Positions 2,138 to 6,526 of a stretch of 64,000 nucleotides of DNA are shown here, piece after piece. The DNA is taken from NCBI GenBank assembly GCA_025358305.1, contig JANYJZ010000027.1:62001-126000 (forward strand), written 5' to 3'. The DNA comes from Ignavibacteriota bacterium. Its GTDB lineage: Bacteria > Bacteroidota > Ignavibacteria > UBA10030 > SZUA-254. The position numbers and the translations under genes are program-made. The stretch's first letter is position 1, and each line of letters begins with the position of its first letter. The notes under the pieces are model-generated. The model ran no database searches and was not told the DNA's origin. It saw only the letters and a program-made list of their open reading frames with translations.

Positions 2138-5100
2138 ATGACTGTGAAGTCCTTTCTTGACGTACTGCGTGATAAGACGATTGTTTTCGACGGCGCCATG
2201 GGCACGAACATCCAGGTCCAGAATCTTTCCGCCGACGATTTCGGCGGGGAGGACTTCAACGGATGCAACGAACGCCTCGTCGTCACGAAGCCTTCCGCCG
2301 TCGAAAAGGTCCACGCGGACTTTCTCGAGGTGGGATGCGACGTCATCGAAACGGACAGCTTCGGTTCGACATCGATCGTGCTCACGGAGTACGGCATCGC
2401 CGATCAGGCGTACGACCTGAACGTTCGCGCCGCAGCGCTGGCGAAGAAGGTCGCGAAGGACTTTTCCACCGCAGCCCACCCACGGTTCGTCGCCGGGTCG
2501 ATGGGGCCGACGACGAAGCTCCCGTCGCTCGGCCATATCTCCTTCAAGGATATGGAAAAGTCGTACTATGTCCAAGCGAAGGGGCTCGTCGAGGGCGGGG
2601 TGGACCTGTTGGTCGTGGAGACATGCCAGGATGTCCTTCAAAGCAAGGCCGCGCTCGCCGGGGTCTTTTCGTATTTTAGGGACGCGCGCGTGAAGGTGCC
2701 CGTCATCGCATCGGTCACCATCGAGACGATGGGAACGATGCTCCTCGGAACGGAGATCGCGGCGGCCTTGACCGCTCTTGAGCCGTTCGACATCGACCTC
2801 CTCGGAATGAACTGTGCCACAGGCCCGAAGGAGATGTCGGAAAATGTCCGCTACCTCTGTCAGAACAGCCCCAAGCCCGTCTTCGTCATGCCGAACGCCG
2901 GGATACCGGAGAACGTCGGCGGGCATGCGCATTACACGCTCTCGCCGGAGGAACTGACACAGTTCCTGTCGCACTTCGTCAAGGACCTTGGCGTCGCCGC
3001 CGTGGGCGGCTGTTGCGGCACCACGCCTGCACACCTCGCGAAACTCGTACAGGCGGTCGGGGCTTACGCCCCGATAGCGCGGAAATGGGAGTTCACGCCG
3101 AGCTGTTCAAGCCTCTACCAAAGCGTGCCGTTCCATGTCGATCCCGCCCCTGTCATCGTGGGGGAGCGGTCGAACGCGAACGGGAGCAAGCTCTTCCGCG
3201 AATACCTCGCCGCCGAGGATATGGAGGGGATGACGGCGATGGGCAAGGACCAGGCGCGCGAAGGCGCGCACATCGTGGACGTCTGTGTCGCGTATGTCGG
3301 GCGGGATGAAGGGAAGGATATGCGGGAACTTATCTTTCGGTACAACACGCAGGTCACCGCCCCCCTCATGATCGACTCGACCGAAACCCCCGTCATTGAG
3401 GACGCCCTGGAACGGATCGGTGGCAAGGCCATTGTGAACTCCATCAACCTCGAGGACGGAGAGGAACGGATGGGGCACGTCCTCCCGCTGTGCCGGAAGT
3501 TCGGCGCCGCCGTCGTCGCTCTCACCATCGACGAGCGAGGGATGGCGAAGACCGTCGAACGGAAGGTCGAGATCGCGAAGCGCATCCATGATCTCGCGAC
3601 GCGCAAATTCGGGATGAAGGAAGAGAACATCATCTTTGACACGCTCACCTTCACGCTCGGCTCCGGGGGCGAGGAATTCCGGAAGGCGGGCGTTGAGACG
3701 ATCGAGGCGATCCGTGAGATCAAGAAGCTCTTTCCGGGGGTCCACACAAGCCTCGGCGTCAGTAATATCTCCTTCGGGCTCTCAGCGCATTCACGGCACG
3801 TGCTCAACAGCGTTTTTCTCCACTACGCCATCGAATACGGCCTCGACATGGCGATCGTCCATGCGTCGAAAATTATGCCGCTCTACAAGATCACCGAGCG
3901 CGAACGGGAGATCTGCCGGAAGCTCATCTTCGACGAGCGGACCGACGCGTACGATCCTCTCGAGGACTTCCTCGCCTTCTTCTCCACCCACAAGGGGGAG
4001 GGGAAGAAGAAGGTGGAGCGCGCCGGGACGATCGAGGAGCAGCTCAAGAACAGGATCATCAACGGGGACAAAGTGGGTCTTCCGCAAGATCTCGATGAGG
4101 GCTTGAAGAAATACCCCGCCCTTGAGATCATCAACACGATCCTCTTGGGGGGAATGAAGGTCGTCGGCGAGCTCTTCGGAAGCGGTCAGATGCAGTTACC
4201 ATTCGTCCTGCAGTCGGCGGAGGTCATGAAGTCCTCCGTCGCATATCTCGAACAGTTCATGGACAAAGCGGATTCGACGTCGAAGGGGACCATGGTCATC
4301 GCGACGGTGAAGGGAGACGTCCACGACATCGGGAAGAATCTCGTGGACATCATCCTGACGAACAACGGCTACAAGGTCATCAACCTCGGCATACAGTGTC
4401 CCCTCGAGAAGATGCTTACGGCGGCGGCGGAGCATTCCGCCAACGCGATCGGCATGTCCGGCCTACTCGTGAAGTCAACGCTCATCATGAAAGAGAACCT
4501 TGCCGTCATGACCGAGCGGGGGATGCTGACCCCCGTCATCCTGGGCGGCGCCGCGCTCACCCGCCGGTACGTCGAGAATGATCTTCGGGCGGTGTACAGC
4601 GGCACGCTCTTTTACGCGAACGACGCCTTCGACGGCCTCCATTTCATGGAACAGATCGCCTCCTCAGCGGGCGCGACCGTCGTGCGCAAGGAGACCGCCG
4701 TCCCCGCCGCCTCGGCCGAAGGGGAAGAGGCGGAACTCTCCGGGCTCGAGGCAAAGATCGCGCTCTCGCCCCGCGAATCCGAGGCCACCACTCCCCGTGC
4801 GCGGCTCGCCCCGGCGGAGATACCGAAGGCCCCGTTCTTCGGGTCCCGGGTCGTCGAACATCCGAACCTCGACGAGATCTATCATTACATCAACGAGCGC
4901 GCGCTCATCCGCGGCCAATGGCAGGTGAAGAAGGGCAAGCTCTCCGAGGCCGAGTACGAAGTGATGTTGAAGGAGAAGATCTATCCCGACCTCGCGCGGT
5001 TGAAGAAGAAGTCGAAACAGGAGGGATTCCTCGCGCCGAAGGCGGTCTACGGATACTTCCCCTGCCAGTCGGACGGGGACGACTTGATCATCTACCGGCT

Positions 5101-5665
5101 GCGTTCTGCAAAGCGCCCTTCGGAGATCTGGAATGTCGTCGGACTTCCCGCGCCCGAGGATATGGAGGAATTTCTGCGCTTCACCTTCCCTCGACAGACG
5201 AAAGGGAAGGGCTTGTGCATCGCAGATTTCTTCGCCGCACGAGAGTCGGGCCGCTTCGATGTCGTCGCGTTCCACCTCGTGACAATGGGAAGCGCAGCCT
5301 CGGACCACGCGGCGAAACTCTTCCAGGCGAACAACTACAAGGACTATCTCTATTTCCACGGCTTAAGCGTGGAGTCCGCTGAGGCCTTGGCGGAACTATG
5401 GCACAAGAAGATCCGCGAAGAACTCGGCATTGACAAGAAGGATGATACCGATACGAAGAAGCTCTTCAGTCAGCATTACCAGGGATCGCGGTACAGTTTC
5501 GGGTATCCCGCGTGTCCGAGCCTCGAAGATCAGGAAAAGCTCTTCCTGCTCCTGGATCCCGAGCGCATCGGCGTGAAGCTCACGGAGGAATTCCAGCTCG
5601 TGCCGGAACAGTCCACATCGGCGATCATCGTCCACCATCCAGAGGCGAGATACTTCAATATCTGA
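2138..5665 (+). CDS. metH: Cobalamin-dependent methionine synthase
   Basis: This 1175-residue protein transfers a methyl group from 5-methyltetrahydrofolate to homocysteine through cobalamin. The full MetH domain order is present: homocysteine-binding barrel (about 1-320) with zinc cysteines C226, C292 and C293; pterin-binding barrel (about 330-600); cobalamin cap (about 640-720); B12-binding domain (about 725-860) with the DxHxxG loop, whose His729 is the lower cobalt ligand; and the AdoMet-dependent reactivation domain to the C-terminus. Length and order match canonical MetH. The 97 bp upstream are too short for a cobalamin riboswitch and show no such structure. QueG and an acyl-CoA mutase in the same window also belong to cobalamin-using families. 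Confidence 0.97.
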   Translation: MTVKSFLDVLRDKTIVFDGAMGTNIQVQNLSADDFGGEDFNGCNERLVVTKPSAVEKVHADFLEVGCDVIETDSFGSTSIVLTEYGIADQAYDLNVRAAALAKKVAKDFSTAAHPRFVAGSMGPTTKLPSLGHISFKDMEKSYYVQAKGLVEGGVDLLVVETCQDVLQSKAALAGVFSYFRDARVKVPVIASVTIETMGTMLLGTEIAAALTALEPFDIDLLGMNCATGPKEMSENVRYLCQNSPKPVFVMPNAGIPENVGGHAHYTLSPEELTQFLSHFVKDLGVAAVGGCCGTTPAHLAKLVQAVGAYAPIARKWEFTPSCSSLYQSVPFHVDPAPVIVGERSNANGSKLFREYLAAEDMEGMTAMGKDQAREGAHIVDVCVAYVGRDEGKDMRELIFRYNTQVTAPLMIDSTETPVIEDALERIGGKAIVNSINLEDGEERMGHVLPLCRKFGAAVVALTIDERGMAKTVERKVEIAKRIHDLATRKFGMKEENIIFDTLTFTLGSGGEEFRKAGVETIEAIREIKKLFPGVHTSLGVSNISFGLSAHSRHVLNSVFLHYAIEYGLDMAIVHASKIMPLYKITEREREICRKLIFDERTDAYDPLEDFLAFFSTHKGEGKKKVERAGTIEEQLKNRIINGDKVGLPQDLDEGLKKYPALEIINTILLGGMKVVGELFGSGQMQLPFVLQSAEVMKSSVAYLEQFMDKADSTSKGTMVIATVKGDVHDIGKNLVDIILTNNGYKVINLGIQCPLEKMLTAAAEHSANAIGMSGLLVKSTLIMKENLAVMTERGMLTPVILGGAALTRRYVENDLRAVYSGTLFYANDAFDGLHFMEQIASSAGATVVRKETAVPAASAEGEEAELSGLEAKIALSPRESEATTPRARLAPAEIPKAPFFGSRVVEHPNLDEIYHYINERALIRGQWQVKKGKLSEAEYEVMLKEKIYPDLARLKKKSKQEGFLAPKAVYGYFPCQSDGDDLIIYRLRSAKRPSEIWNVVGLPAPEDMEEFLRFTFPRQTKGKGLCIADFFAARESGRFDVVAFHLVTMGSAASDHAAKLFQANNYKDYLYFHGLSVESAEALAELWHKKIREELGIDKKDDTDTKKLFSQHYQGSRYSFGYPACPSLEDQEKLFLLLDPERIGVKLTEEFQLVPEQSTSAIIVHHPEARYFNI

Positions 5666-5694: not shown

Positions 5695-5723
5695 TTGAAT
5701 TTCCGATGATTTTTTCTTATACT
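5695..5723 (+). promoter_or_regulatory. Promoter predicting a leaderless DUF309 mRNA
   Basis: TTGAAT at 5695-5700, a 17-nt spacer, and TATACT at 5718-5723. Only 8 nt separate the -10 hexamer from the ATG at 5732, so the normal start distance puts transcription at or within a base or two of the start codon. No ribosome-binding site fits in that space. Confidence 0.65.
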
Positions 5724-5731
5724 GTTTTCAG

Positions 5732-6109
5732 ATGACTGAAAATCCTCAGTTTCAGCAGGGCATCGCGGAATTCAATAGGGAATTGTTCTTCGAGTGCCAC
5801 GATACCCTGGAAGAACTCTGGATGGATACGAGCGGGAACGACCGGCTGTTCTTGCAAGGACTGATACAGGTGTCCGTCGGTTTTTATCACTTTTTTAACA
5901 GGAATTACAAGGGAGCGACCAGCCAGTTCACGAAAGGGCTGGGGAAGCTCGACCAGTATCGCCCCCGCCACGGCGGGATCGACCTGGATACGTTTACGCG
6001 TCAGATCGTGGCCTGGCTGGCGCTTGCAGAACAGGGTGTCACCGGTGGCAGCATCGGGTCAGAAGAATTCACTATTCCAAAGATTCACGTCGTACAGCAT
6101 CAACGTTGA
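5732..6109 (+). CDS. DUF309 domain protein
   Basis: This is a small helical protein of 125 residues with the DUF309 signature: an acidic N-terminal helix containing FECHDTLEELWM at about residues 22-33, then a second conserved helix with FLQGLIQVSVGFYHF. The family is widespread in bacteria and plastids. The conserved His, Asp and Glu cluster suggests metal or ligand binding, but no biochemical role is established that I can name. It is followed after 12 bp by a ferredoxin gene, so the two are probably cotranscribed from the promoter at 5695 and end at the terminator at 6483. The start codon is tightly constrained by that promoter. Confidence 0.8.
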   Translation: MTENPQFQQGIAEFNRELFFECHDTLEELWMDTSGNDRLFLQGLIQVSVGFYHFFNRNYKGATSQFTKGLGKLDQYRPRHGGIDLDTFTRQIVAWLALAEQGVTGGSIGSEEFTIPKIHVVQHQR

Positions 6110-6121
6110 AGGAGAAGACCA

Positions 6122-6463
6122 ATGGCAACAATGATTACCGAAGAGTGTATCAACTGCGGAGCATGCGAGCCCGAATGCCCAAACACCGCGATCTATGCCG
6201 GCGGCGTTAACTGGGAATTGAACGGCGAAAGCACTGCTGCGCTCTCCAACGATTTTTACTACATTGTCCCCCAGAAGTGCACTGAATGCGTCGGCCACTT
6301 CGACCAGGAGCAGTGTGCTGCAGTGTGTCCCGTTGACTGCTGTGTGCCGGATCCAAACAATGTCGAGAGTGAAGAGCTCCTGATGGGCAGGGCGAAACAG
6401 CTCCACCCGGGCAAGGAGTATGCGGAGCTGAGCGAAGCGACGTCGCACTTCCGCAAGGTATAG
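6122..6463 (+). CDS. Small dicluster-type 4Fe-4S ferredoxin (YfhL-like)
   Basis: This is a 113-residue electron carrier. The first cluster motif is C9-x2-C12-x2-C15-x3-C19-P. The second set is C53-x2-C56, then C65-x3-C69-P and C73, with an eight-residue insertion between Cys56 and Cys65 typical of YfhL/Fdx-type bacterial ferredoxins. It probably carries two low-potential [4Fe-4S] clusters in the cytoplasm. The redox partner is not evident. An AAGGAG ribosome site sits just before the ATG. It follows DUF309 closely and is ended by a strong intrinsic terminator. Confidence 0.9.
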
Positions 6464-6482: not shown

Positions 6483-6526
6483 GAAAGGCCGGTTGATCTC
6501 GAATGTCAGCCGGCCTTTCTTTGTTG
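6483..6526 (+). terminator. Intrinsic terminator after the ferredoxin gene
   Basis: A 14-bp stem has arms at 6483-6496 and 6506-6519. It contains one G-U pair, a 9-nt loop and a T-rich tail. Confidence 0.9.

Follow-up and report, generated by a model that had tools for sequence, protein, structure and literature searches.

A conserved promoter abutting the DUF309 start codon points to a leaderless or near-leaderless DUF309–ferredoxin mRNA in Ignavibacteria

A promoter lies directly before the DUF309 start codon

We analysed a 64,000-nucleotide stretch of the Ignavibacteriota bacterium assembly GCA_025358305.1 (the window), which carries two adjacent plus-strand genes. The first, at 5732–6109, starts with ATG, stops at TGA (6107–6109) and encodes a 125-amino-acid DUF309 protein (PF03745). 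The second, at 6122–6463, encodes a 113-amino-acid YfhL-family 4Fe-4S dicluster ferredoxin (NF033683, above cut-off). It is preceded by a Shine–Dalgarno (SD) sequence, AAGGAG (6109–6114, plus strand), whose first base is the last base of the DUF309 stop codon. An earlier note on this DNA had written of 'DUF309-ferredoxin'; the two genes are indeed neighbours, but they are not fused. Behind them, a hairpin resembling an intrinsic terminator (6483–6519, plus strand; a 15-bp stem and then a T-rich tail, z = −6.4) is the likely end of a two-gene unit. Upstream lies metH (2138–5665, plus strand), separated from DUF309 by a gap of 66 nt. Within this gap the window sequence reads, on the plus strand, a −35 hexamer TTGAAT (5695–5700) and a −10 hexamer TATACT (5718–5723) with a spacer of 17 nt. 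As the earlier note had claimed, only 8 nt, GTTTTCAG (5724–5731), stand between TATACT and the ATG at 5732, and the DUF309 gene has no SD sequence.

This ATG is the only sensible start for DUF309, because the nearest in-frame stop codon on its 5′ side, TGA 5696, closes the frame and the next in-frame start, TTG 5783, lies inside the DUF309 domain. The promoter is of the sigma-A (sigma-70) type: it agrees with the consensus at 9 of 12 hexamer positions, its spacer is 17 nt and its hexamers recur between families. Transcription usually starts 6–7 nt after the −10 hexamer, which places the first base at A5730 or G5731 and gives a leader of 1–2 nt. With A5732 included, the position of the −10 hexamer predicts a plus-strand start at 5730–5732 and a leader of 0–2 nt. 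An inverted repeat, TTTTCAG-ATGA-CTGAAAA, flanks the start codon (window 5725–5742) in this genome and not in its relatives. We rejected the corresponding RNA hairpin, UUUUCAG-AUGA-CUGAAAA, as a conserved switch, since relatives do not keep the pairing.

The word 'strong', which the earlier note had applied to this promoter, was generous. Sites of the 9/12 type are frequent: on both strands of 12 kb we found 8, compared with 3.6 (sd 2.0) in shuffled sequences, so a lone match proves little. The whole window holds 28, and overall there is one per 1.5 to 2.3 kb with both strands counted. Two of the 28 have an NTG 5–10 nt downstream that opens a reading frame of at least 100 codons, namely the DUF309 site and one on the minus strand at 2547, antisense to metH.

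Among proteins of known structure, 2cwy/2cxd (TTHA0068) and 2ijq are DUF309 members and weak sequence relatives of the window protein (E = 0.003 and 0.0002, respectively). They were deposited as hypothetical proteins and are uninformative on the mRNA.

The promoter position is shared by orthologues in the order

A search of the order with a threshold of E ≤ 1e-15 found the protein in 34 of 98 genomes, covering 23 of 55 genera. The 34 loci that we used came from 33 of these genomes and from one (G057/L023) that missed the cut-off and was retrieved by another search; G045/L010 was omitted, as the contig begins within the gene. A contig scan gave a single relative, L032, whose coordinates denote the same place as L003. 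The closest relative found, on contig JACOSX010000061.1 ('Ignavibacteria bacterium'), has 66% protein identity and was placed in the same family. The start codon is ATG in the window and in 32 of the 34 loci. L009 and L021 have a similar promoter and lack an ATG at the expected place, which may reflect a real loss, an unusual start or an assembly error. These two were left out of the promoter tests, leaving n = 32.

We scored the 120 nt before each ATG against TTGACA/TATAAT with spacers of 16–18 nt, a spacer of 17 nt receiving a bonus of 0.3. In 24 of the 32 loci a unique best promoter was found 5–10 nt upstream of the ATG, with 8 nt the commonest distance. In 60 rounds of dinucleotide shuffling the mean was 1.0 locus and the maximum 3, a comparison that ignores relatedness, several loci being close kin. 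As controls, the same test picked out 12 of 277 genes, DUF309 among them, when applied to a sample of 432 kb from the bacterium's own genome, and none of 27 starts of the neighbouring ferredoxin gene in these loci. Compared across orthologues, the position of the promoter is far from chance. Of the eight loci with no unique best site at 5–10 nt, two (L064 and L018) have ties in that range, three (L057, L015 and L016) have a site there that is weaker than the best one elsewhere, and two (L008 and L014) lack a good one; in L011 the site lies 17 nt from the downstream ATG and 2 nt from another ATG.

When the best site at 4–10 nt was taken in each locus (n = 32), the distance was 8 nt in 18 loci, 9 nt in 6, 7 nt in 4, 10 nt in 2, and 5 and 6 nt in one each. 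The spacer was 17 nt in 30 of these 32, with a score that slightly favours 17. We also compared families f1, f4 (a single row), f5 and f6 column by column. Between-family identity was 1.0, 0.93 and 0.83 for the TTG of the −35 hexamer and 0.93, 0.95 and 0.88 for the T, A and last T of the −10 hexamer, values that are raised by anchoring the rows on the best-scoring site. In the 21 columns 5′ of the −35 hexamer it was 0.21–0.38, and this dissimilarity of the flanks between families argues against a recent common copy.

The two genes differ in their SD sequences

Before DUF309, the longest SD-like word was at most 4 nt in all 32 loci, and the window gene has none. An SD sequence of at least 5 nt precedes the ferredoxin gene in 27 of 29 loci, compared with 0 of 32 for DUF309; the ferredoxin gene was recognised in 29 of the 34 loci and not in the other 5. 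The 3′ end of the 16S rRNA reads GGATCACCTCCTTT, and its anti-SD is intact. These results support the coexistence of two initiation modes, as the earlier note had proposed, and the two are predicted to operate within one operon. Its broader remark on good AGGAG sites at other genes applies to the neighbouring ferredoxin gene but less well to the genome sample, in which an SD-like word was present at 104 of 278 chosen starts (from simple gene calls, with a start choice that favours SD words). Because genes without an SD sequence are common in this genome, DUF309 is marked out by its promoter and not by the absence of an SD sequence alone.

A sister family keeps the operon and a similar layout

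In the sister family f7, which belongs to the same class, matches came from 40 of 76 genomes. We compared the best 30 loci from these 40 genomes, which are AT-rich, taking the NTG closest upstream of the conserved region as the start. Among these best 30, the unique best promoter lay 9–11 nt before the start in 17, at exactly 10 nt in 15 of them, compared with 1.2 loci on average and at most 5 in shuffles; it lay elsewhere in 8, and sites tied in 5. A ferredoxin gene follows DUF309 in all of the best 30, and one of them has an SD-like word of at least 5 nt. The 17 loci with the layout, again from the best 30 of 40, start with TTG (14), GTG (2) or ATG (1). In the f7 locus L179 a stop codon lies immediately 5′ of the TTG. 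The recurrence of the spacing in related genomes, which the earlier note had suggested as a check, is therefore seen in the order and, at a slightly greater distance, in f7.

A phylum-wide search matched 33 of 296 genomes and yielded 23 new loci, 13 of them outside f7; three matched genomes gave no locus. The layout was found in 0 of the 13 homologues outside the order and f7. The ferredoxin gene is absent next door in 12 of the 13, L079 alone having one within reach. The layout therefore goes with the operon.

The layout is not enriched across the genome sample

The own-genome sample covers 432 kb of 3.2 Mb, with simple gene calls and start choices. Its 12 genes with the layout compare with about 14 expected from position alone, and of the strong sites counted over 60 nt (n = 35), 3 fall at 5–10 nt, where 3.5 are expected. 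A genome-wide leaderless mode is thus not supported in this sample, as the layout is not enriched before starts. Across the order, the pattern TTG-N20-TATACT-N6-10-ATG matched in 88 of 98 genomes among the matches listed, and at the 71 loci inspected 16 of 72 matches, again among those listed, open a frame of at least 100 codons. We did not use these counts as evidence because few of the matches open long frames and some are duplicates or lie inside longer frames.

Individual sites of this kind were also noted. In the own genome, TTGATT-17-TATATT lies 9 nt before an internal candidate ATG on the plus strand of contig C4 (L039, near 8978), a candidate second leaderless gene whose product carries an MRM3-like substrate-binding domain (rRNA-methylase-like). 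On the minus strand of contig C1 (L053, 3415–3452), TTGCGT-17-TATACT lies 6 nt before the ATG of a MarR-family gene, and its −10 hexamer forms part of a perfect palindrome of 20 bp, ATAGTTAGTATACTAACTAT, which may serve as an operator for self-repression. Elsewhere in the order, promoters 6–9 nt before an ATG were seen for TsaD (L119/L141), RuvB (L154), a response regulator (L130 and L132) and L124 and L137, whose products we take to be HIT-like (the Pfam match of L124 is CwfJ_C_1).

Several short open reading frames also follow such promoters. In L129, L133 and L148, Trp-rich frames (WAWRWPWRQF, SWWWRWR) begin 7–9 nt after a TTG-N20-TATACT promoter. Visual inspection shows an inverted repeat with a run of T behind them and then a similar gene, the start of which in L133 matches TrpB-like models (a fragment, below cut-off). 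In L158 and L159, on the minus strand, Tyr/Phe-rich frames (YYYFYFF; PRFYY) start 6 nt downstream of a promoter of this type. Next comes, on visual inspection, a G+C-rich repeat with a run of T, and after it a gene, which in L159 matches DAHP synthase. The former are apparently leaderless attenuator peptides, of which Sinorhizobium trpL is a known example (PMC7298713), and the latter apparently leaderless aromatic attenuators. A recurring mini-ORF starting MKLGFTN, MKPCFTN or MKPSFSN stands directly after TTGACATT...TATACT in L123, L127, L135 and L153. The gene some hundred nucleotides further on looks, on visual inspection, like one for an outer-membrane protein that has a carboxypeptidase-like repeat.

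Other readings of the conserved block

A leaderless mRNA could be made and serve mainly the ferredoxin, with DUF309 protein coming mostly from metH read-through on an mRNA with a long leader that lacks an SD sequence. Our search between metH and the promoter found no terminator-like site, so read-through could occur, and initiation without an SD sequence is described for neighbouring Bacteroidetes (PMC3155529, PMC6847099). We nevertheless regard this division of labour as unlikely: on visual inspection, only some of the loci have a metH-like tail in front, whereas the promoter–ATG distance is kept, and in read-through RNA of this genome UUUUCAG could pair with CUGAAAA around the AUG, a pairing that is not conserved. 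It is very improbable that the block is no promoter at all and instead, as an A/U-rich element of the S1 or Kozak-like type, enhances translation from within a longer leader. The spacer is T-rich, some of its columns are conserved up to 0.93, and AT-rich signals near −20 to −10 are debated as Pribnow boxes or S1 sites (PMC5397173); however, conservation of TTG and TA...T at a nearly constant spacing of 17 nt is the pattern of sigma-A and not of a loose U-rich tract. That the match arose by chance, the true promoter lying far upstream, is scarcely credible, since the frequency of single 9/12 sites is set against an orthologue comparison (24 of 32 loci, with the shuffle, own-genome and ferredoxin controls above) that rejects it.

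Discussion

Our analysis makes it very probable that the promoter abutting the DUF309 start gives rise to a leaderless or near-leaderless (0–2 nt) two-gene mRNA. The prediction that DUF309 mRNA is leaderless or nearly so, with a leader of 0–4 nt, is well supported, and the retention of the layout in many distant relatives suggests that it matters. The spacing in orthologues thus favours the view of the earlier note that the mRNA begins at the start codon, although the usual distance from the −10 hexamer would give a leader of 1–2 nt rather than exactly zero.

We propose that RNA polymerase would use the sigma-A-type promoter TTGAAT-17-TATACT to start at 5730–5732, and that the transcript would span DUF309 and then the YfhL-type ferredoxin gene before terminating at the hairpin at 6483–6519. 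The terminal or nearly terminal AUG of the first cistron may be bound directly, without an SD sequence, by 70S ribosomes or by 30S subunits loaded with initiator tRNA, the routes described for leaderless translation (PMC10783764, PMC4611024, PMC5397173). The second cistron would be initiated through its own AAGGAG. The layout may have been retained because one promoter could then provide much ferredoxin and little, or ribosome-state-dependent, DUF309. We tentatively extend this to a selected leaderless initiation module on the DUF309–ferredoxin operon of the class Ignavibacteria, a possibility that we would not yet put at even chances. In such a module the AUG would lie mostly 7–9 nt after the −10 hexamer in the order, and in the sister family mostly a UUG at 10 nt, with an expected leader of 3–4 nt and no SD sequence; DUF309 would be held low or made dependent on ribosome state, and ferredoxin would be translated normally.

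In the leaderless genes described for bacteria, a −10 box (TANNNT) stands some 12 bp before the start, counted from the first T of the box (PMC3160421), and DUF309 resembles them in having its −10 hexamer just before the start codon and no SD sequence. In contrast to the 6 nt implied for those genes, the −35/−10 pair here mostly keeps 7–10 nt from the start, and it does so at one operon of a genome whose sample shows no enrichment of the layout. As the 8 nt of the window exceed 6 nt, a leader of 1–2 nt is as likely as none. Among 37 Bacteroidetes/Chlorobi genomes, the same survey reports leaderless genes in one (PMC3160421), and a 2017 comparison suggests leaderless and/or S1-dependent starts for Chlorobi and Bacteroidetes (PMC5397173). 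In mycobacteria, leaderless starts are reported as a major feature, the state is common to 71 of 97 orthologues between two species, and AUG or GUG serves as the start, whereas TTG fails; E. coli work cited there finds ATG optimal in the leaderless position (PMC4633059). Orthologues share the layout here too, as predicted from sequence, but unlike in mycobacteria the sample has few leaderless starts, and f7 seems to use UUG. Transcript maps from the same wider group as Ignavibacteria include short-leader mRNAs: about 3.7% of 5′ UTRs are shorter than 10 nt in Bacteroides thetaiotaomicron (PMC7366714), and 5.5% of mRNAs are leaderless in Flavobacterium psychrophilum (PMC9723704). Those are mapped transcripts from SD-poor lineages, whereas in our case the operon's second gene carries an SD sequence and conservation was tested over many genera. 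The titles and abstract openings in our literature search mentioned no leaderless DUF309 gene and no conserved leaderless gene in Ignavibacteria, and a search for Melioribacter transcription start sites found nothing. Leaderless mRNAs themselves are known; the novelty lies in how deeply one operon of Ignavibacteria conserves the layout, in a genome otherwise without enrichment of it.

The layout as yet tells nothing about the function of DUF309. Leaderless mRNAs have mostly been studied where they are common in a lineage. Because this operon keeps the layout over many genera and its second cistron uses an SD sequence, selection for leaderlessness becomes testable on a single gene. The sister family offers a natural test case for UUG starts on mRNAs with ultra-short leaders, and start-site annotation in Ignavibacteria would benefit.
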